Shown: in pieces, positions 1-42,770 of the stretch
How positions within the stretch are numbered: the stretch's first letter is position 1
Layout of the letters: each line of letters opens with the position of its first letter
Assembly: GCF_000217935.1 (NCBI RefSeq)
Contig: NZ_AFHI01000024.1
Location: 1 to 56,048 of the forward strand
Direction of reading: 5' to 3'
DNA from: Rheinheimera sp. A13L
GTDB lineage: Bacteria > Pseudomonadota > Gammaproteobacteria > Enterobacterales > Alteromonadaceae
Length of the DNA: 56,048 nt
The notes under the pieces: generated by a model
What the model was told of the DNA's origin: nothing
Database searches by the model: none
The model's input: the letters and a program-made list of their open reading frames with translations, nothing else
Made by a program: the position numbers and the translations under genes

Positions 1-3
1 GCC

Positions 4-26
4 AAAGCCACCTTCACGGTGGCTTT
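4..26 (+). terminator. Rho-independent terminator of a gene left of the window
   Basis: A 9-bp perfect stem (positions 4-12 with 18-26) with a 5-base loop is followed by GTTATTT. It should end transcription of a gene lying to the left. accC is the usual neighbour of prmA, but that gene is not visible here. Confidence 0.7.
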
Positions 27-47
27 GTTATTTGCGCCACCTAAGCG

Positions 48-76
48 CTGATTTTAAGCCGCCAAACTGCTACAAT
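48..76 (+). promoter_or_regulatory. Candidate sigma-70 promoter for prmA
   Basis: TACAAT at 71-76 matches the -10 consensus at five of six bases. A poor -35 (CTGATT, 48-53) lies 17 bp upstream. Its position after the terminator at 4-26 and before prmA makes it plausible, but the -35 is weak. Confidence 0.35.
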
Positions 77-110
77 TCGCGCCCATTTCCAGAAAGTGAA
101 GAGCAACGCC

Positions 111-995
111 ATGCCGTGGATCCAATTACGCGTAAACAGCACTGAAAAACAAGCCGAGCAGGTCAGCGATATGCTGATGAGCTGGGGAGCGCAAGCAGTC
201 AGTTTTGTTGACGCCAAAGACACCCCTATTTACGAACCTATGCCGGGTGAAGTCTTGTATTGGGAAAATACGGTTGTGGTAGGTTTGTTTGACGCTGAAC
301 ATAACATGGATAAAGTGGTTCGCCAGCTGGAAAAAGCCGCCATTTTCAAAAACGGTGTGCAGTACAAGCTGGAACAACTGGAAGACAAAGACTGGGAAAG
401 GGAATGGATGGATAACTTCCACCCTATTCGTTTCGGTCACAGATTATGGGTCTGTCCAAGCTGGCGCGATATTCCGGATCCAACGGCAGTGAACGTGATG
501 CTGGACCCGGGCTTAGCTTTTGGTACCGGCACTCACCCAACCACAGCACTTTGTATGGAATGGCTGGATGCACAGGAATTGTCGCAAAGTTTAGTGGTCG
601 ATTTTGGTTGTGGCTCAGGTATTTTAGGTATTGCGGCATTAAAGCTTGGTGCTAAGCGTGTGGTCGGTATCGACATTGACCCACAAGCTATTGAATCCAG
701 CCTCGCCAACGCCACCCGTAACAGTGTAGAGCAACAAATTGAGTTGTATTTGCCGAAGGATCAACCTGCTTCATTAGAAGCCGATGTAGTAGTGGCGAAT
801 ATTCTGGCCGGCCCTTTAGCACAGCTTTCTGGCATTATCAGTGCTTACGTCAAACCAGGTGGCCTGCTGGCGCTGTCCGGTATTCTGGAAAGTCAGGCTC
901 AGTCGGTGATCGATGCTTACGCGGCAGAATTTGAGTTTGACCCTGTAGCGGTCAAAGAAGAATGGGTGCGCTTAACGGCACGGAAGAAAGTTTAA
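111..995 (+). CDS. prmA: Ribosomal protein L11 methyltransferase PrmA
   Basis: SAM-dependent enzyme that methylates ribosomal protein L11 (uL11) in the cytoplasm. The 294-residue product matches the usual family length (E. coli 293). The N-terminus begins MPWIQL as in E. coli, which sets the ATG at 111 rather than the in-frame GTG at 96. The substrate-recognition segment around residues 90-145 holds [16 protein letters not shown] and [15 protein letters not shown]. The SAM-binding motif [20 protein letters not shown] starts near residue 162, and [11 protein letters not shown] follows. It is followed by a strong terminator and then by genes on the opposite strand, so the dusB-fis neighbours known from enterics are absent. 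Identification is firm. Confidence 0.97.
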
Positions 996-1030
996 GGCCT
1001 CATCGTTCGATCTATAGCCTGACTGCTCTA

Positions 1031-1057
1031 CAGGCGACCTGCCCATCAGGTCGCCTG
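1031..1057 (+). terminator. Terminator of prmA
   Basis: An 11-bp perfect stem (1031-1041 with 1047-1057), loop CCCAT, is followed by TTTCT. It lies between the converging prmA and pspC-like genes and mainly serves prmA. Confidence 0.8.
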
Positions 1058-1074
1058 TTTCTAACAAACTCATA

Positions 1075-1284
1075 TCAGTACACCCAACGTTCTGGCAGTA
1101 TTAACGCAGCGGCGATATAAGCTACTACCACAGCAACCGGAAAACACAGCGCCAGCAATACCACTACAGTGCGGATTAACCAGATTGGTTGCTCATAAAA
1201 AGCAGCAAAACCTGCACACACACCTGAAATTTTACGTTTAGCCTTGTTCACAAACCAGGCACTTTTATCTTTTTCTAAACTCAT
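1075..1284 (-). CDS. PspC-domain envelope-stress membrane protein
   Basis: A 69-residue protein with the PspC domain (phage shock protein C family, inner membrane). Residues 14-27 hold the typical KAKRKISGVCAGFA segment, followed by a hydrophobic stretch of about 25 residues ending ALILPERW. In E. coli PspC works with PspB in sensing membrane damage and releasing PspF from PspA. Here the protein is little more than the domain itself, without the long C-terminal part of E. coli PspC. The ATG at 1284 is chosen because GGAGAG lies 7 bases upstream; the TTG at 1299 has no such site. The stop codon of the 31-residue gene upstream lies just after this ribosome-binding site, so the two are probably coupled. 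No pspA, pspB or pspF is visible nearby. Confidence 0.85.
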   Translation of the reverse strand: MSLEKDKSAWFVNKAKRKISGVCAGFAAFYEQPIWLIRTVVVLLALCFPVAVVVAYIAAALILPERWVY

Positions 1285-1288
1285 ATGC

Positions 1289-1384
1289 TTACTCTCCAAT
1301 CTTGTTATAAACCGCTCTGTCTAACAACCAGAGCAAACCAGCTAAAGCCCAGACCACGACAATATTGATAATAATCAGTGACAT
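1289..1384 (-). CDS. Small membrane peptide, 31 residues, upstream of the PspC gene
   Basis: The frame reads MSLIIINIVVVWALAGLLWL followed by LDRAVYNKIGE. It is one hydrophobic segment of about 20 residues with a short charged C-terminus, so a single-pass inner-membrane peptide. The start has a strong ribosome-binding site, GGGAGAGG, eight bases upstream. Its last codons carry the ribosome-binding site of the PspC-domain gene (GGAGAG then TAA), which argues that it is translated. PspB, the usual partner of PspC, also has an N-terminal membrane helix but is longer (about 74 residues) with a coiled coil that is missing here. I do not recognise the family. Confidence 0.6.
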   Translation of the reverse strand: MSLIIINIVVVWALAGLLWLLDRAVYNKIGE

Positions 1385-1412
1385 GTTCTGCCTCTCCCTA
1401 AACGCTTTTTGT

Positions 1413-1487
1413 TCAGACTTCGTCTGCAGCCCAGCTGCCAACAATGCCAAACCATGCTAATACAACCATCAGTGCTGCTATTTCCAT
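1413..1487 (-). CDS. Tandem 24-residue membrane peptide, copy 1 (promoter-distal)
   Basis: The peptide begins MEIAALMVVLAWFGIVGSWA and ends ADEV. It is a single predicted membrane helix with an acidic C-terminus. GGAGAG lies 6 bases before the ATG. It is the last of three gene copies spaced exactly 140 bp apart, and the three peptides are identical. Compared with copies 2 and 3 this one has GCA instead of GCT for Ala11, a silent change. That the changes are silent is the main evidence that the frame is translated. Function unknown; I recognise no family. Confidence 0.65.
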   Translation of the reverse strand: MEIAALMVVLAWFGIVGSWAADEV

Positions 1488-1552
1488 TTTGACTCTCCTC
1501 ACCTTTGTTTATGTTTTTCACTTTTTGCTGATACTCATCAGCGCTTAGTTAT

Positions 1553-1627
1553 TCAGACTTCGTCTGCAGCCCAGCTGCCTACAATGCCAAACCAAGCTAA
1601 TACAACCATCAGTGCTGCTATTTCCAT
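1553..1627 (-). CDS. Tandem 24-residue membrane peptide, copy 2
   Basis: Same 24-residue product as copies 1 and 3. Codon 16 is GTA here rather than GTT, again silent. It has the same GGAGAG ribosome-binding site at the same spacing. The spacer between this copy and copy 1 carries a 6-bp hairpin (1527-1542, GCTGAT with ATCAGC), repeated at the equivalent place between copies 2 and 3. The hairpin has no U-tract in the direction of transcription, so it is more likely an RNA processing or stability element than a terminator. Confidence 0.65.
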   Translation of the reverse strand: MEIAALMVVLAWFGIVGSWAADEV

Positions 1628-1692
1628 TTTGACTCTCCTTACCTCTGTTTATGTTTTTCACTTTTTGCTGATACCCATCAGCGCTTAGTTAT

Positions 1693-1767
1693 TCAGACTT
1701 CGTCTGCAGCCCAGCTGCCAACAATACCGAACCAAGCTAATACAACCATCAGTGCTGCTATTTCCAT
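1693..1767 (-). CDS. Tandem 24-residue membrane peptide, copy 3 (promoter-proximal)
   Basis: First gene of the run, about 55-60 bases downstream of the predicted sigma-54 start site. It encodes the same 24-residue peptide, with TTC and GGT instead of TTT and GGC at codons 13 and 14, both silent. GGAGAG precedes the ATG by 6 bases. A short membrane peptide in several tandem copies also recalls type I toxins such as Ldr and Ibs; no antisense RNA promoter is convincing here. Confidence 0.65.
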   Translation of the reverse strand: MEIAALMVVLAWFGIVGSWAADEV

Positions 1768-1834
1768 TTTGACTCTCCTTAACCTTAGTTAGTGGTTTAA
1801 TTCATCATCAGTTCATCTGTTGATATCTATACAT

Positions 1835-1851
1835 TGCAGCTGTTATGCCAA
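1835..1851 (-). promoter_or_regulatory. Sigma-54 promoter of the peptide-PspC operon
   Basis: The minus strand reads TTGGCATAACAGCTGCA. It has the invariant GG and GC dinucleotides 12 bases apart and a good fit to TTGGCAC-N5-TTGCA. It uses the same -24 element, TTGGCATAA, as the glnA promoter at 38043. A start site near 1823 would give a leader of about 55 bases before the first peptide gene. In E. coli the psp operon is sigma-54/PspF dependent, which agrees with the PspC gene at the end of this unit. Confidence 0.65.
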
Positions 1852-2109
1852 CTTAAAAATTAATTTCAAGCCACTGTTTTAAATCATTATTTTATGAAAA
1901 ACATCAAAGCAAGGTTGTTGTTTGAATTATAGTCAAAACACAAAAGTAGCGTTTTTAACCATTTTTTAGTTATTTTTAAATAAGGCAATTTCAATCAAAT
2001 TCAAACAAGCAGGTGCAACCGACTTGCACTAAAGAGGGATCAGAAAATCAGGGGTATAAAAGGAGCCAGAGAAACAAACTTAGCCATGGAAAAGGACTTA
2101 AAAAAACAA
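1852..2109. other. AT-rich upstream region with a 17-bp inverted repeat
   Basis: No gene seen. The stretch is AT-rich with A and T runs that would favour bending. At 2013-2029 lies a perfect inverted repeat, GTGCAA-N5-TTGCAC, about 165-175 bp upstream of the sigma-54 promoter. That is a suitable distance for an enhancer-binding protein. Whether it serves that promoter is inference; the sequence is not a clear PspF or NtrC site. Confidence 0.45.
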
Positions 2110-2135
2110 AACCCGGTACTACTTAAAACCGGGTT
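2110..2135 (-). terminator. Terminator of the two-gene small-protein operon
   Basis: An 8-bp stem (2110-2117 with 2128-2135) is followed on the minus strand by TTTGTTTTTTT. The stop codon of the 41-residue gene at 2123 lies inside the loop of the hairpin. Confidence 0.8.
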
Positions 2136-2248
2136 GAAGCAGGAATATCGAACGGGGGTAATAACCAATGCCAGATCACAGATACCAGGCCAACACTAAC
2201 GACGGGCAATAAAAACAGCCCCAACAAGCCTAATGTTAAGCTCAGCAT
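2123..2248 (-). CDS. Small membrane peptide, 41 residues
   Basis: The frame begins MLSLTLGLLGLFLLPVVSVG and continues with a second apolar stretch around WHWLLPPF, ending PASTRF. It is one long or two short membrane helices. The ATG lies two bases after the TAA of the 88-residue gene, and AAGG lies about 10 bases upstream, so translation is probably coupled. The terminator begins inside its last codons, so the transcript is built to include this frame. No family recognised. Confidence 0.5.
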   Translation of the reverse strand: MLSLTLGLLGLFLLPVVSVGLVSVIWHWLLPPFDIPASTRF

Positions 2249-2250
2249 CC

Positions 2251-2517
2251 TTAGTTCACCTTAGCTGCCGCAACAACTGTTTGTTTATCAGTTTCAGTGC
2301 TGGTGACTAAAGTTGCTTCCAGTTCGGCCAGAGCTTTTTTACTTTGTTCAGCAATGGCCGCTTTTAATTCAGTCATTTGCTGACTCATCAATTCTGTCGC
2401 AAAATTGCTGATCGCTTGTGTATTGACTGAAGGTAAGCTCAGCTCATTGGCTTGCGCTACAGGGGTAACAGCAAAAGCTGCAGAGGTAATCAGGACTAAC
2501 GTAGCGAGTGTTTTCAT
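2251..2517 (-). CDS. Small secreted protein, 88 residues, unknown function
   Basis: The N-terminus is a clear Sec signal peptide, with cleavage likely after AQA near residue 23. The mature part, about 65 residues, is a polar helix rich in Ala, Glu, Gln and Lys with no cysteine. It is preceded by AGGAGCACGACC before the ATG at 2517, a good ribosome-binding site. It is co-transcribed with the 41-residue membrane peptide and ends at a shared terminator. I see no motif that gives a function. A periplasmic helical protein acting together with the membrane peptide is possible but unsupported. Confidence 0.75.
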   Translation of the reverse strand: MKTLATLVLITSAAFAVTPVAQANELSLPSVNTQAISNFATELMSQQMTELKAAIAEQSKKALAELEATLVTSTETDKQTVVAAAKVN

Positions 2518-2663
2518 GGTCGTGCTCCTTAATGAGTAATGAAGTTCACTATCTCTATTTCAAGGTGCGTGCCATACTAATAATATTTTTTAAGTTATTG
2601 ATAATAAACAACTTAACTAAGATTAAAAGGGGTTTTCAAAATCAAATAAAAAACCAATAAAAC

Positions 2664-2693
2664 AAAAAAGTAGGTGAAATTCACCACTTTTTT
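2664..2693 (-). terminator. Terminator of dusA
   Basis: A 13-bp stem with one bulged A (arms 2664-2677 and 2681-2693, loop AAT) has A6 on one side and T6 on the other. It can work in both directions; the gene it follows is dusA on the minus strand. Confidence 0.8.
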
Positions 2694-2703
2694 GTTTTCA
2701 ACG

Positions 2704-3705
2704 TTAAAGCTGTGGCACCTTTTTCAGCGCATCCAGCATCACTTGTGGACCACTGGTCGGCAGATGACCTATTTCACTTAAATGCCGGCGCCATAAACGG
2801 GCACCTGGTACGCCCTGAAACAGCCCCAGCATATGGCGTGCTATATGCCAGAATCGTGCACCTTGAGTCATTTGTCGTTCAATGTAAGGCAACATCAACT
2901 CAACCACCTGATGGGGTGTAGGTACAGCTCGTGGGTTGTTATAAATAGCAGCGTCGATTTGCGCCAGCATTAGCGGGTTGCTGTACGCCTCGCGGCCTAC
3001 CATCACACCATCCACATGCTGTAAATGGGTTAAACAATCAGCCAGGGTTTTAACGCCACCATTGATGGAGATATCTAAATGCGGGAAATCTTTTTTCAGC
3101 TGATAAACGCGCTCATAATCCAGTGGCGGAATTTCACGGTTTTCTTTAGGGCTTAAACCACTTAACCAGGCTTTACGGGCATGCACAATAAACTGGTTAC
3201 AACCGGATTCAGCGATAGTGCCGATAAAATCGACTAAAAACTGATAGCTGTCGTGATCATCAATACCAATGCGGCTTTTTACCGTGACAGGAATATCCAC
3301 TACAGCACGCATTTCATGAATACAGGCAGCCACTAATTCAGGTCTGGCCATCAGGCAAGCGCCAAACATACCATTTTGTACTCTGTCCGAAGGGCAACCT
3401 ACATTGATATTAATAGCGTCGTAGCCCCTTTCCTGACAAAGCTTAGCGCTATGCGCCATATCTTTAGAGTCTGAACCACCCAGCTGAACTACGACCGGAT
3501 GTTCTTCGTCATTAAAACCAAGATAATCCCCCTGCCCATAAATAATGGCCCCTGTGGTCACCATTTCGGTATAAAGCACCGCATGTTCAGACAATAAACG
3601 GTGGAAATAACGACAATGTTTATCCGTCCAATCCAGCATAGGGGCAATGGAGAAACGGTGATCCATAGTCACAGGCTTGGAGGAGGAAGTATTCGAACTA
3701 GTCAT
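2704..3705 (-). CDS. dusA: tRNA-dihydrouridine(20/20a) synthase DusA
   Basis: Flavoenzyme that reduces U20/U20a in the D-loop of tRNA. The 333-residue product has the FMN-binding TIM barrel start [10 protein letters not shown] (residues 19-28), the catalytic cysteine C117 in NGMFGACLM, the FMN contacts VKSRIG and ISINGGVKT, and the C-terminal RNA-binding helical part with [19 protein letters not shown]. These are DusA rather than DusB or DusC features. The region before the ATG has no strong ribosome-binding site; the next ATG, 13 codons in, is an alternative. It is a single-gene unit with its own terminator. Confidence 0.95.
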
Positions 3706-3940
3706 AAACGGCTGCCATTTGGTTAATCTGCTGTTTTCTGCAAACTCTGAGCACAGAGTGTAGAAAAATCGCGCGAGTATACACCAGAAGGCCAGGCTTT
3801 TCAGTGCAAAGCTTCTGGCTATACTGATTTTTAGCCTTGCTGCATTATGTGACTACAATAGAAATGCAGCTACAGTCAGATGCTGGAGCCTGACAAAATT
3901 ACAGATTTGTAAGGCAAAAGACTAAAACAAAGGAGCTTGT

Positions 3941-4981
3941 ATGCGTAACTTTCTGGTGTTTATCTTTACATTGATTTGTACCCTTAGCCTGATCTCAACA
4001 GCTGAAGCCTGTACCAGAGCTGTTTATAAGGGTCCTGAGCAACTGGTGCTTACTGCCCGTTCGATGGATTGGCGTGATGAGATCCCGGTGAATCTTTGGC
4101 TATTTCCCCGAGGTATGCAACGCCAGGGAGAAGTTGGCCCTAACTCAGTGCGCTGGACCTCGCGATATGGCAGCGTAGTCGCCAGTGCCTTTGATATTTC
4201 AAGCACTGATGGTTTGAACGAAAAAGGCCTGGTCGCTAATCTGTTGTGGTTAGTGGAGTCACGTTATGCCGACTATGACGGCAGTCAACCCGGTTTGAGT
4301 ATTGCTGCCTGGGTACAATATATGCTGGATAATTTTGCGACAGTCTCTGAAGCTGTAGAGGCCATGCAGAACGAACCTTTTGTTGTTGTCTCTGCAAATA
4401 TTCCAGGAACTGACCGTTTAGCCACCTTACATTTATCTTTATCAGACGCTTCAGGCGACAATGCGGTGTTTGAGTATATCAATGGAAAGCTGGTGATCCA
4501 TCACGATCCGTCTTATACCGTGATGACCAACTCCCCCGTATTTGAAAAACAGCTGGCAATCAACGAATACTGGCGTGAATTGGGAGGCACCACTATGCTG
4601 CCGGGAACAAACAGAGCAGCAGACCGTTTTGTCAGAGCCTCGTTTTACCTGCAAGCAATACCTCAGACCAGTGATCCCTGGATTGCGGTAGCCAGCCTGT
4701 TCAGTGTGATCCGTAATGCTTCAGTGCCCTTTGGCATTTCATCACCCACTGAGCCCAATATTTCATCTACCCGCTGGCGCTCTGTTTCTGATCATAAAGC
4801 ACTACGTTACTACTTTGAGACTGTATTAACACCGAATACCTTCTGGGTTGACCTGAAACAAGCTGACCTGCAAAAGGGGCAGCCCGTGCGTAAACTTGCC
4901 TTGTCAGAACATCAAACCTACGCAGGAAATGCGGTTTCACAATTCAGGCCAGCCGAAGCTTTTCAGTTTGCAGGCTTGTAG
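3941..4981 (+). CDS. Periplasmic Ntn-hydrolase, choloylglycine hydrolase / penicillin V acylase family
   Basis: Linear-amide C-N hydrolase of the conjugated bile salt hydrolase and penicillin V acylase family, 346 residues. A signal peptide ends at AEA, directly before C24, so that cleavage exposes the N-terminal nucleophile as the family requires. C24-T-R26 and the segment LTARSMDWR follow, supplying the catalytic Cys, Arg and Asp. The conserved Asn lies in VMTNSPVF and a later Arg in NRAADRF. Gram-negative members are reported to hydrolyse N-acyl homoserine lactones as well as penicillin V, so the substrate cannot be read from sequence. A strong AAAGGAGC precedes the ATG. It is a single gene with no acyl-homoserine lactone synthase nearby. 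Confidence 0.85.
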   Translation: MRNFLVFIFTLICTLSLISTAEACTRAVYKGPEQLVLTARSMDWRDEIPVNLWLFPRGMQRQGEVGPNSVRWTSRYGSVVASAFDISSTDGLNEKGLVANLLWLVESRYADYDGSQPGLSIAAWVQYMLDNFATVSEAVEAMQNEPFVVVSANIPGTDRLATLHLSLSDASGDNAVFEYINGKLVIHHDPSYTVMTNSPVFEKQLAINEYWRELGGTTMLPGTNRAADRFVRASFYLQAIPQTSDPWIAVASLFSVIRNASVPFGISSPTEPNISSTRWRSVSDHKALRYYFETVLTPNTFWVDLKQADLQKGQPVRKLALSEHQTYAGNAVSQFRPAEAFQFAGL

Positions 4982-6248: not shown

Positions 6249-7332
6249 GCTGTTCAGCATTCATATATCTGAACTCGACCCTGCTGGTGATATTACACAG
6301 TAACTCATAAGGAATAGTCTGGGCCTGCTCTGCAATTTCTTCGACCGGCAAATCAGTACCCCATAACAGCACTTCATCACCAATCTGCACATCGGCTTTG
6401 CCAATATCCACTGTGGTCATATCCATAGAGACACGCCCAACTATCGGATAACGCTCACCTTTAATCAGCACAGGGCAGCCATTGCCGGCCGCTCTTGGAT
6501 AACCATCGCCATAACCTACAGCCACTACAGCCAGGCGGGTATCTGTTGGCGCAATCCAGGTACCGCCGTACCCTACTTTGTCGCCTTGCTTCACGTCACG
6601 CACCGCAATCACGCTGCTGCTAAAGCTCATCACGGCTTTTAATTGATGTTGCTCTGCTCTGCCCCGCTCCATCGGCGAAACGCCGTACAAAGCCAATCCA
6701 GGCCGGATCCAGTGACCATGACTTTGAGGCCAGGCCAAAGTTCCTGCGGAATTTGCCAGACAATGCTCACCAGCCAAACCTTCAACTGTTTTAGCAAAGA
6801 GATCAATCTGCTGCTGAGTGCTATCCTGCGCCAGCTCATCGGCGCTGGCAAAATGAGTCATCAGCCGCATCGGCTGGATCACATTGGGGCTGTGGCACAA
6901 CTGCTGGTAGGCCTGTAGAAATTGCTCTGGCAATAAACCTAAGCGGTGCATACCACTGTCCATTTTCAGCCAGACATGGATGGGTGAATCCAGCTCTGCC
7001 GAAACTAAAGCCTCAACCTGACTTTCATGATGCACTACCACTTGTAAGTTGCTGGCGACGATCTGTGGTAATTCGTCTGCGTGAAAAAAACCTTCCAGCA
7101 GCACTATAGGTTTAACTATGCCACCGGCGCGCAGCATCAGCGCTTCGTCGATACGGGCTACACCAAAAGCGCTGGCGTCTTTTAGCTGTTCGGCCACTTT
7201 TAATAAACCATGACCATAAGCATTGGCTTTTAATACCGCCAGCACTTTGCTATTTGGCGCGGCAGCACGCACTTGTTGTAAATTATGCAGTAAGGCCGCT
7301 AAATCAATGCGGGCCTGTGGACGACGACTCAT
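6235..7332 (-). CDS. alr: Alanine racemase
   Basis: PLP enzyme that makes D-alanine for peptidoglycan, 365 residues, the usual length. K35 in VLAVLKANAYGHG binds PLP. The second catalytic residue is the Tyr of KVGYGGTW near residue 255, and the PLP phosphate loop is around GVSPMERG. The active-site motif VSMDMTTVD is present. The ATG overlaps the dnaB stop codon by one base (TAATG), so it is translationally coupled to dnaB. dnaB-alr order is the same as in E. coli. Confidence 0.97.
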   Translation of the reverse strand: MSRRPQARIDLAALLHNLQQVRAAAPNSKVLAVLKANAYGHGLLKVAEQLKDASAFGVARIDEALMLRAGGIVKPIVLLEGFFHADELPQIVASNLQVVVHHESQVEALVSAELDSPIHVWLKMDSGMHRLGLLPEQFLQAYQQLCHSPNVIQPMRLMTHFASADELAQDSTQQQIDLFAKTVEGLAGEHCLANSAGTLAWPQSHGHWIRPGLALYGVSPMERGRAEQHQLKAVMSFSSSVIAVRDVKQGDKVGYGGTWIAPTDTRLAVVAVGYGDGYPRAAGNGCPVLIKGERYPIVGRVSMDMTTVDIGKADVQIGDEVLLWGTDLPVEEIAEQAQTIPYELLCNITSRVEFRYMNAEQQKAD

Positions 7333-8723
7333 TAATACTCGTCCTCAAAACGGGCTGTACCGGCGTAATTATCAAAACGTGAATAGCGGCCATGGAAAGT
7401 CAGGCGAATACGACCTATAGGGCCGTTACGTTGTTTACCTATAATGACTTCGGCCGTGCCTTTATCCGGGCTGTCGTCGTGATACACCTCATCACGGTAG
7501 ATAAACATAATTAAGTCGGCATCCTGCTCGATAGAACCGGATTCACGTAAGTCAGAGTTCACCGGGCGCTTGTCGGCTCGTTGTTCCAAACTACGGTTAA
7601 GCTGCGATAAGGCAACGACCGGCACTTTTAACTCTTTGGCGAGAGCTTTTAATGAACGCGAAATTTCGGCGATTTCTAAAGTACGGTTTTCCGATAAACC
7701 CGGTACTGTCATCAGCTGCAGATAGTCGACCATGATCATGCTCAGGCCACCATGTTCACGTGCTACACGACGGGCACGGGAGCGCACTTCAGTCGGTGTT
7801 AAACCTGAAGCATCATCGATATACATTTTGCCTTTGCTGTTCAGAAGTTCGATGGCGGAGGATAAACGCGCCCAATCTTCATCATCCAGCTGGCCTGTCC
7901 GCACTTTGGTTTGGTCAATACGGCCTAAAGATGCCAGCATCCTCATCATAATTTGTTCGGACGGCATCTCTAAGCTGAAAATAAGCACCGGCTTATCGCT
8001 GGTAATAGCGGCGTGTTCACACAAGTTCATCGCAAAAGTGGTTTTACCCATAGAAGGACGGGCCGCAACAATAATAAGATCCGACGGCTGCATACCATTG
8101 GTCATTTTATCCAGATCCATATAACCCGTGGAGACACCAGTTAAACCACCAGCGCTTGGGTTACGGAACAGCTCATCTATTTTATCTATGGTTTTCGACA
8201 AAATGCTGTTGATAGGCTCAGGGCCTTCATTGGAATTGGCGCGCTGTTCTGCAATTTTAAAGACTTTGGTTTCTGCAAAGTCCAGAAGCTCGGCACTGTT
8301 GCGGCCTTGTGGGTCGTAACCTGCATCAGCAATATCGTGCGCTACAGAAATCATATCCCGAACCACAGCACGTTCACGCACTATGTCGGCATAGGCCAGA
8401 ATATTGGCCGCACTGGGAGTGTTTTTGGCAATTTCGCCTAAATAGGCAAAACCACCAACGTCGGCTAATTGCTGGCTGCGTTCTAAAGTTTCAGAAACGG
8501 TAATTAAGTCGATAGGCTGGTTGGCTTCAGCCACCCGTGACATCGCAGAGAAAATAAAGCGGTGTGAACGTAAATAGAAGTCGTGCTCAACCACTTTTTC
8601 CGAGACCTTGTCCCAGGCATCGTTGTCCAGCATTAAGCCGCCTAAGACGGATTGCTCAGCTTCAATGGAATGTGGCGGCATTTTTACCGCTGCGACTTGT
8701 TTATCTCTTTGCTTATTGTCCAT
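7332..8723 (-). CDS. dnaB: Replicative DNA helicase DnaB
   Basis: Hexameric 5'-3' helicase at the replication fork, 463 residues. The N-terminal domain (residues 15-120) begins PPHSIEAEQSVLGGLM. The RecA-like domain has Walker A ARPSMGKTTFAMN with K227, the catalytic Glu in FSLEMPSEQ, Walker B MIMVDYLQLM, the SQLNRSLEQR segment and the arginine finger region near the C-terminus. No intein is present. The gene starts with ATG, and 190 bases of intergenic sequence precede it. It forms an operon with alr. Confidence 0.98.
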   Translation of the reverse strand: MDNKQRDKQVAAVKMPPHSIEAEQSVLGGLMLDNDAWDKVSEKVVEHDFYLRSHRFIFSAMSRVAEANQPIDLITVSETLERSQQLADVGGFAYLGEIAKNTPSAANILAYADIVRERAVVRDMISVAHDIADAGYDPQGRNSAELLDFAETKVFKIAEQRANSNEGPEPINSILSKTIDKIDELFRNPSAGGLTGVSTGYMDLDKMTNGMQPSDLIIVAARPSMGKTTFAMNLCEHAAITSDKPVLIFSLEMPSEQIMMRMLASLGRIDQTKVRTGQLDDEDWARLSSAIELLNSKGKMYIDDASGLTPTEVRSRARRVAREHGGLSMIMVDYLQLMTVPGLSENRTLEIAEISRSLKALAKELKVPVVALSQLNRSLEQRADKRPVNSDLRESGSIEQDADLIMFIYRDEVYHDDSPDKGTAEVIIGKQRNGPIGRIRLTFHGRYSRFDNYAGTARFEDEY

Positions 8724-29946: not shown

Positions 29947-30022
29947 TGGAGCGGGCAACGAGGCTCGAACTCGTGACCTCGACCTTGGCAAGGTCGCGCT
30001 CTACCAACACAACTATGCCCGC
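29947..30022 (-). tRNA. tRNA-Gly(GCC), divergent copy, possibly not functional
   Basis: 76 bases with encoded CCA. The acceptor, anticodon arm (GCC at 34-36) and T arm are identical to the two upstream copies. Three substitutions hit the D arm: C11 to T, C13 to G and A14 to T. The 13-22 pair becomes G-G, 11-24 becomes a wobble, and the conserved A14 that pairs with U8 is lost. It is the promoter-distal copy of the trio. It may be a decaying copy or a tRNA with a role outside normal translation. Confidence 0.75.
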
Positions 30023-30072
30023 ATGGGTAGTGTTTGAATAGAGTGAATTGATTACTTAACAAGATTGAAATT

Positions 30073-30148
30073 TGGAGCGGGCAACGAGGCTCGAACTCGT
30101 GACCTCGACCTTGGCAAGGTCGCGCTCTACCAACTGAGCTATGCCCGC
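30073..30148 (-). tRNA. tRNA-Gly(GCC)
   Basis: 76 bases with encoded CCA. It has acceptor stem GCGGGCA/TGCCCGC with U73, D arm GCTC/GAGC, anticodon loop TTGCCAA, and T arm with TTCGAGC. It is identical to the copy at 30204. The three-copy arrangement downstream of orn matches glyV-glyX-glyY of E. coli. Confidence 0.97.
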
Positions 30149-30203
30149 TTAGGGGTATTACTGATTTTTGTCTCAAACTGGTTATTGGTGGACCAATTTG
30201 ATT

Positions 30204-30279
30204 TGGAGCGGGCAACGAGGCTCGAACTCGTGACCTCGACCTTGGCAAGGTCGCGCTCTACCAACTGAGCTATGCCCGC
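30204..30279 (-). tRNA. tRNA-Gly(GCC)
   Basis: Promoter-proximal copy of the trio, identical in sequence to the one at 30073 and with encoded CCA. About 55 bases separate it from the next copy. The shared promoter probably lies in the stretch 30280-30335, after the orn terminator. Confidence 0.97.
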
Positions 30280-41373: not shown

Positions 41374-42770
41374 TCTGGATTATTGATGATGACAATTCGA
41401 TCCGCTGGGTATTGGAAAAGGCGTTAGCCAGGGCAGATATTGCCTGCGAAAGTTATGCTTCTGCCGATTTGATGTTGCAACGTCTGCAGTATGAACAACC
41501 TACAGTGGTGGTATCCGACATTCGGATGCCAGGCACTGATGGTATGGCGCTGTTAACCAAGTTGCAGGAACTCTCCCCTGAATTGCCTGTGATTATTATG
41601 ACAGCGCATTCGGATCTGGACAGTGCAGTCAATGCCTTTAAAAAAGGCGCTTTTGAGTACCTGCCAAAACCTTTTGATATTAATGAAGCTGTATCGCTTA
41701 TTCAGCGTGCTTTGGCGCACAGTCAGGCGAAACAGCCAAAACAACAGGCTGTAGTACAGACTGAAGTGCCGGAAATTATCGGTGAAGCTCCGGCTATGCA
41801 GGAAGTATTTCGTGCTATTGGCCGCTTATCACGCTCCAGTATCAGCGTGCTGATCAACGGTCAGTCCGGTACAGGCAAAGAACTGGTGGCTCATGCACTG
41901 CATAAACACAGCCCACGTTCAGAACAGCCTTTTATTGCGTTAAATATGGCGGCTATTCCAAAAGACTTAATAGAATCTGAGCTGTTTGGTCATGAAAAAG
42001 GCGCATTTACCGGCGCTGCCAACTTGCGTAAAGGTCGCTTTGAACAAGCAGATGGTGGCACGTTATTTCTCGACGAAATAGGTGATATGCCGCTGGACGT
42101 GCAAACCCGTTTGTTAAGAGTGCTGGCTGATGGTCAGTTTTACCGGGTCGGTGGTCACCAGGGCATCAGCGTGGATGTACGCATTATTGCGGCCACTCAC
42201 CAGAATCTGGAAATACTGGTGGCTGAAGGCAAGTTCCGCGAAGACTTATTCCATCGCCTGAATGTGATCCGCATTCAAATTCCTGCACTGAAAGATCGCA
42301 AACAGGATATTCCCAAACTGGCGCAGCATTTCCTGCAGCAGGCAGCCCGTGAGCTGAATGTGGAAGCAAAAAATCTGGCGCCTGAGACCGAAAAATTTAT
42401 AGCTCAGCTCGACTGGCCTGGTAACGTGCGCCAACTGGAAAACAGCTGTCGTTGGTTAACAGTGATGGCCAGTGGCAAACAAGTGCTGTTATCCGACTTA
42501 CCGCCTGAACTCACCAGCGCACCTAAAGTCATAGTAAGCTCCACAACTGGCGGTCAACAAAGCTGGCAAGATGCGTTAGCGGCCTGGGTCAGTCAAAAAC
42601 TCAATGCCGGTGAAGAAAACATTCTGGCTGAAGCAGGGCCTGAATTTGAAAAAATAGTGCTGCAACAGGCATTACATTACACCCATGGTCATAAACAAGA
42701 TGCAGCTAAACGTTTGGGCTGGGGCCGAAATACTCTGACCCGTAAGTTAAAAGAACTGAACATGGAATAG
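41361..42770 (+). CDS. ntrC: Nitrogen regulation response regulator NtrC (GlnG)
   Basis: Sigma-54 activator of nitrogen-assimilation genes, 469 residues. The receiver domain (1-120) has D53 in [10 protein letters not shown], plus T and K at MTAHSD and LPKPFD. The AAA+ domain has Walker [14 protein letters not shown], the sigma-54 contact loop [11 protein letters not shown] and Walker [13 protein letters not shown]. The C-terminal Fis-type helix-turn-helix is [20 protein letters not shown]. Likely acts on the sites at 37924 and 40258. The operator at the peptide-PspC operon (2013) is not an obvious NtrC site. Confidence 0.97.

Follow-up and report, generated by a model that had tools for sequence, protein, structure and literature searches.

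Results

A tandem array of three p24 genes

The window analyzed here, the whole stretch of 56,048 nucleotides from Rheinheimera sp. A13L, carries three tandem units of 140 bp on the minus strand of positions 1413-1767, each of which contains one 75-bp frame. All three copies (copy 1 at 1693-1767, copy 2 at 1553-1627 and copy 3 at 1413-1487) encode an identical hydrophobic peptide of 24 residues, MEIAALMVVLAWFGIVGSWAADEV, which we refer to as p24. The tandem-repeat array extends over 1412-1781 with 96% matches. Each frame is preceded by a ribosome-binding site in the same register: that of copy 1 is AAGGAGAG at 1773-1780 (minus strand), and those of the other copies are found at 1633-1640 and, as GAGGAGAG, at 1493-1500. 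The four coding bases at which the copies differ are third positions (codons 11, 13, 14 and 16) and all are synonymous, for which the chance with four random changes is about 0.002. These results agree with a preliminary description of this DNA, which had claimed an exact 140-bp period (measured as 140 and 140), a single peptide from all three units, a ribosome-binding site before each ATG and exclusively synonymous base differences. A search of the whole genome found exactly three p24 copies, all of them in the window. The peptide has a net charge of -3 and contains neither Lys nor Arg, residues that were also absent from all 31 copies identified in the genus.

Between the array and a pspC-like gene lies the gene for a single-span membrane peptide of 31 residues, p31 (1289-1384, minus strand). 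The pspC-like gene (1075-1284, minus strand) encodes 69 residues with a PspC domain only, which matched Pfam PF04024 at 50.7 bits (cut-off 25), in keeping with the PspC gene earlier proposed for this apparent operon, and fell below both NCBIfam PspC equivalog cut-offs (47.4 bits versus 104 and 37.7 versus 136). The p24, p31 and pspC genes thus appear to form one operon, and it is proximity that ties p24 to p31 and PspC. We considered p31 as a truncated PspB and ruled this out: NKIGE is the sole shared stretch (shuffle p 0.064), and it is present in the p31 of one of the 12 carriers of p24. Three residues, W12, W19 and D22, coincide in position between p24 and p31 (shuffle p 0.00015, for a feature chosen post hoc). 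Neither the overall identity of the two peptides (p 0.21) nor their local score (p 0.39) was significant as evidence of paralogy.

Selection on p24 and turnover of the array

Full-length p24 was found in 12 of 22 Rheinheimera genomes, six of them having two copies, five having three and one having four, 31 in all. These copies were selected with a motif (ATG, ME, ALMVV) that is blind to badly broken copies, and an independent search gave the same 31. Thirty copies are intact; the exception has a stop at Trp19 and is one of the four copies in L008, taken as the genome of R. faecalis. Frames broken by indels in relatives, set beforehand as the observation that would speak against genes here, numbered none of 31, with the one nonsense codon as the only lesion. 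Indels were present in the spacers, and a GGA-containing site precedes all 31 p24 starts.

Calculated by the Nei-Gojobori method, pN/pS for p24 was 0.083 over the 27 pairs from the same genome and 0.108 over the 438 pairs from different genomes, the pairs not being independent. The preliminary description had proposed selection on the peptide and suggested counting copies and substitution ratios in relatives, and the ratio of about 0.1 over 31 copies in 12 genomes bears its proposal out. In the same genomes (66 pairs for each gene, again not independent) the ratios were 0.170 for p31, 0.107 for pspC, and 0.266 and 0.104 for p88 and p41, the genes of a neighboring operon. Synonymous divergence (pS) was 0.26 for p24, 0.20 for p41 and 0.35-0.38 for the other three neighbors. 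Among the 11 intact variants of the peptide, 18 of 24 alignment columns are invariant. We conclude that the p24 frames are very probably coding.

The spacers have a mean identity of 93.8% within genomes (8 pairs) versus 73.0% between genomes (163 pairs), and the p24 coding sequences one of 92.9% within versus 92.0% between. Since the spacers are alike within and unlike between genomes while coding identity is nearly equal, the arrays appear to have been homogenized or re-expanded within lineages, with the peptide kept.

RNA features of the locus

A hairpin, GCTGAT-N4-ATCAGC, is found in the spacer between copies 1 and 2 (1667-1682, minus strand), with a second at 1527-1542. Over 14 distinct spacers, 96.4% of cells were paired, with two double-sided changes, and 12 of 500 shuffles reached as high a value. 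This alignment comprised 14 of 19 spacers; the five omitted were a near-identical spacer from each of L007, L008, L009 and L014 and that of L015, which has no spacer hairpin. The fold energy was not unusual (z -1.06, one fold). The hairpin was listed in the scan as a plus-strand terminator, a role we rejected as its tail, CTTAGTTATT, lacks a T run and as no promoter of the sigma-70 type was found ahead of it. An open reading frame antisense to p24 on the plus strand was likewise discarded, its start and length varying from none to 41 residues over the 31 units.

A scan for sigma-70-type consensus promoters on either strand of 1000-2750 found none, versus 3.4 expected, and an Rfam search of 1-4200 (E up to 1) gave one chance match at the edge of the window and nothing else. 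The ribosome-binding sites of 28 of 31 copies, in 12 genomes, were predicted to be more open than the transcript mean, with the transcription start assumed. The 5' leader from the sigma-54-like site described below to the first p24 start (1768-1834) is nearly invariant in all 12 carriers; it contains tiny start-stop frames and has no Rfam match.

Genomic place of the p24 operon

The neighboring operon, also on the minus strand, encodes a small exported-looking protein, p88 (2251-2517), and a membrane peptide, p41 (2123-2248). Of the two, p88 evolves fast, as its pN/pS of 0.266 indicates. Behind p41, a terminator-like hairpin (AACCCGG..CCGGGTT followed by a T run; 2095-2135, minus strand) was identified by eye; its loop is longer than the limit of the hairpin scan, in whose listing it is absent. 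The gene dusA (2704-3705, minus strand; identified from its translation) is a syntenic anchor, as 20 of the 22 genus loci have a dusA homologue next to them, the other two (L008 and L016) being ones in which the examined stretch ends before the expected position of dusA. It was also present at two of eight loci outside the genus (L027 and L033). About 3.6 kb beyond dusA there is a frame with a DnaB-like translation (7332-8723). In E. coli K-12 the gene order is dusA-pspG-pspH-qorA-dnaB, and PspG (domain PF09583, E 0.001) was found in none of the 22 genus genomes in a search that did find the E. coli control. From the adjacency to dusA, the lack of a PspG match and the E. coli gene order, the locus thus corresponds in position to pspG and differs from it in content. 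Where E. coli has pspG, the window has the p88-p41 operon (2123-2517), whose PspF-type site is clear. Elsewhere in the window, three tandem tRNA-Gly (GCC) genes are found at 29947-30279.

Sigma-54-like promoters and PspF-like sites

Both operons are preceded on the minus strand by a sequence with the pattern of a sigma-54 -24/-12 promoter, TGGCATAACAGCTGCA at 1835-1850 for the p24 operon and TGGCACGCACCTTGAA at 2559-2574 for the p88-p41 operon. The pattern TGGCAYRNNNNYTGMA has only two matches in the 56-kb window, one upstream of each operon, versus 0.23 expected, and three of 100 shuffles had two or more; the pattern was written post hoc, with both sites already seen. In each of the 12 carriers, TGGCA-N7-TG is located at -83 relative to the start of the first p24 frame, and in all ten genomes without p24 it is located upstream of pspC. 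The promoter of pspA in A13L, TGGCAAGAAACCTGAA, departs from the textbook GC at -12, as do the pspC promoters of the non-carriers. On these sequence patterns, a sigma-54 promoter for the p24 operon is well supported.

Our query for PspF sites was the 22-mer upstream of E. coli pspG (L139), chosen with the word comparison in view. Upstream of p88-p41, a site at 2674-2695 (minus strand) shares 18 of 22 bases with this 22-mer, a score reached by none of 400 shuffles. The possible site of the p24 operon (1949-1970, minus strand) shares 15 of 22 bases, and with 40 of 400 shuffles as good it is not significant alone. Across the carriers the p24 promoters had 15-17 matches, the best match occupying a constant position in 11 of 12; seven of the 12 scored at six or fewer of 400 shuffles and five, including A13L, above. 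The same threshold was attained by the pspC promoters of four of ten non-carriers, the other six lying above it. We also aligned the region upstream of pspA for the 22 genomes and made a matrix from seven distinct canonical pspA sites, which scored 50.7 for the pspA site of A13L, 3.2 for the p88 region and 0.4 for the p24 region. Within the window the last two regions took the second and third ranks, the top score going to an unrelated position, 52106; with shortened matrices their ranks were first and seventh, and fourth and fifth.

A PspF over the profile cut-off and PspA were present in all 22 genus genomes, with PspA of G008 split over two contigs. In A13L, the canonical pspF-pspABC genes are on another contig and have a sigma-54-like promoter. 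The PspF profile had 14 matches in this genome, one of them over the cut-off, which indicates that other enhancer-binding proteins are present. One NtrC-family sigma-54 activator is encoded in the window itself (41775-42752; 281 bits, under the cut-off of the PspF profile). Judged by these sites, control by PspF is fairly well supported for the p88 operon and moderately to weakly for the p24 operon.

Distribution and history of p24

The PspC query was run against 60 genomes, including A13L; 51 had a match, the best 30 loci were scanned for small frames and 13 of those were read further. The nine close pspC loci comprised seven Rheinheimera records (including R. soli, R. tangshanensis, R. mesophila and R. 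faecalis) and two Gammaproteobacteria MAGs. In one comparison of 16 pspC loci, seven were PspC genes from Clostridia and related groups.

A p24 profile built from 11 variants had full-length matches in 12 of 395 genomes of a family sample, which were the 12 carriers, and in A13L only among 394 genomes of an order sample. Two matches were dropped from the genus count, a partial one in G005 (E 0.41) and a surplus one in G015 (E 0.59). Weak matches in 12 of the 395 family genomes (E 0.019-0.097) and seven of the 394 order genomes (E 0.005-0.044), with G030 in both sets, were also dropped, as none spans all 24 positions and several have stops; no PspC motif was found at the 14 weak-match loci examined. 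Searches of phages, plasmids and IMG/VR gave no p24 match, eight IMG/VR stretches fitting a pattern with none confirmed. Pfam, NCBIfam, PHROGs and the PDB sequences gave no match for p24, in line with the earlier statement that no such family was recognized.

In a PspF tree of 22 rows, whose root serves for drawing only, the 12 carriers are separated from the rest by a branch with support of 100/100. The ten non-carriers have a p88-like frame and a p41-like frame, then the sigma-54-like site shortly before pspC. Their p41-like frames had a BLAST match to p41 in nine of ten cases; their p88-like frames, likened to p88 by place, size and signal-like start, had a BLAST match to it in none of ten. 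Outside the genus, L027 has dusA, frames of 89 and 41 residues and pspC, spaced too closely to accommodate an array. Considering the single carrier branch together with the layout of the non-carriers and L027, the simplest history is therefore a gain of p24 within Rheinheimera.

Two other loci outside the genus, L028 and L030, have frames for membrane peptides of 30 and 36 residues just before a pspC-like gene, that of L028 sitting behind a PspA-like end. It is possible that these are other unannotated Psp micropeptides.

Discussion

We propose, as the probable explanation of the locus, that the phage-shock (Psp) response has a second, satellite operon here, the p24 operon. Stress at the inner membrane would lead PspF to activate sigma-54 polymerase at 1835-1850, producing one mRNA with the three p24 cistrons, p31 and the PspC-domain gene. 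Translation of each p24 cistron would start from a separate ribosome-binding site, with the message probably insulated or stabilized by the spacer hairpins. Repeating the cistron would yield more of one peptide from one promoter, probably for dose. The acidic p24 is expected to insert in the inner membrane as a single span, where together with p31 and the small PspC it may be a stress effector with a role like that of E. coli PspG. In Rheinheimera sp. BAL341, the mRNA of pspABC is reported to rise on phage infection (PMC9305737), an observation that concerns pspABC and not p24.

The locus resembles that of E. coli pspG in lying beside dusA, in its sigma-54-like promoter and its small membrane products, and in having a PspF-type site, here upstream of the adjacent p88 operon; E. 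coli pspG itself has a PspF enhancer, as described in an excerpt of PMC3709507. Unlike in E. coli, the locus has p88, p41, tandem p24, p31 and a second pspC in place of PspG. The PspC domain is shared with the canonical pspF-pspABC genes, whereas the p24 locus is without pspA or pspB, has a PspC of 69 residues with one domain and adds a micropeptide array. A further likeness is to E. coli YohP, a membrane protein of 27 residues tied to stress and lowered membrane potential (PMC12719787), in the excerpted text of which control by PspF is not mentioned. In its mode of action p24 may resemble PspG or YohP, though it is neither of them. We know of no sequence relation between p24 and YohP.

A different function within the same control was also considered, in which p24 is a dose-amplified weapon or brake: PspF would sense damage, for example by phage, and the identical acidic peptides, released together, would, with the small PspC, shift the membrane potential, as arrest of the infected cell or as the sealing of a leak. 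We regard this role as unlikely.

The preliminary description had weighed type I toxins and thought envelope stress the better fit. In size, hydrophobicity and tandem identical copies p24 does resemble loci such as Ibs, Ldr and Zor, some of which are tandem, and tandem duplication is a search criterion that found Zor (PMC8309996, in part). Its lack of positive charge is still compatible with a membrane-depolarizing toxin of the Ibs/Zor kind repressed by a plus-strand antisense RNA, IbsC, ShoB and DinQ being exceptions to the cationic C-terminus of type I toxins according to the same excerpt. An overlapping RNA could also cause the pS of p24, which is under that of three of its four neighbors. 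However, no consensus sigma-70-type promoter, antisense or otherwise, was found on the two strands around the array, in a scan of a kind that can miss one, and Rfam gave nothing save its chance match. The array instead heads an apparent operon with pspC and encodes peptides devoid of Lys and Arg in every copy, and the p24 ribosome-binding sites are predicted to be open, whereas that of Zor is sequestered (which is not so in every type I system). With the sigma-54-like site fixed in all carriers, PspF in all 22 genomes and the dusA/pspG-equivalent place, this evidence sides with envelope stress, and we consider a type I toxin-antitoxin array quite unlikely, and less likely than a stress operon under PspF and sigma-54.

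An envelope operon using sigma-54 might answer to an enhancer-binding protein other than PspF, given the several NtrC-family regulators per genome and the weak PspF-like site in the p24 promoter of A13L. Another activator is made less plausible by the presence of pspC, by the location equivalent to that of pspG and by the neighboring operon's clear PspF-type site, and its involvement seems to us unlikely as well. It is very unlikely that the copies are regulatory leader cistrons, the translation of which only tunes p31-pspC translation or mRNA level with the peptide itself irrelevant. The p24 copies do precede pspC in one apparent message, and the leader and spacer hairpins are conserved, but amino acids are conserved while codons vary, copy number varies freely, and in non-carriers the sigma-54-like site is followed directly by pspC. 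Tandem units would also result from a non-coding repeat with a frame open by chance, as turnover of repeats may duplicate any sequence; the third-position differences in the window trio, the low pN/pS, the site before every start and the frames free of indels beside spacers that have them make this extremely improbable.

Among the explanations weighed, the satellite Psp operon under PspF and sigma-54 is the one we prefer. No earlier description of p24 was found in the open-access literature, which was searched by topic rather than by peptide sequence. Genes as short as p24 are commonly passed over in annotation (PMC7667032, in part), and the PspF regulon of E. coli has been described as only pspABCDE and pspG (PMC2763126, in part). 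The way in which Psp effectors safeguard the membrane is a matter of continuing debate. A multiplied and strongly selected peptide of 24 residues would be a minimal, easily manipulated candidate Psp effector, and its array an example of tandem cistrons as a possible means of dose control.
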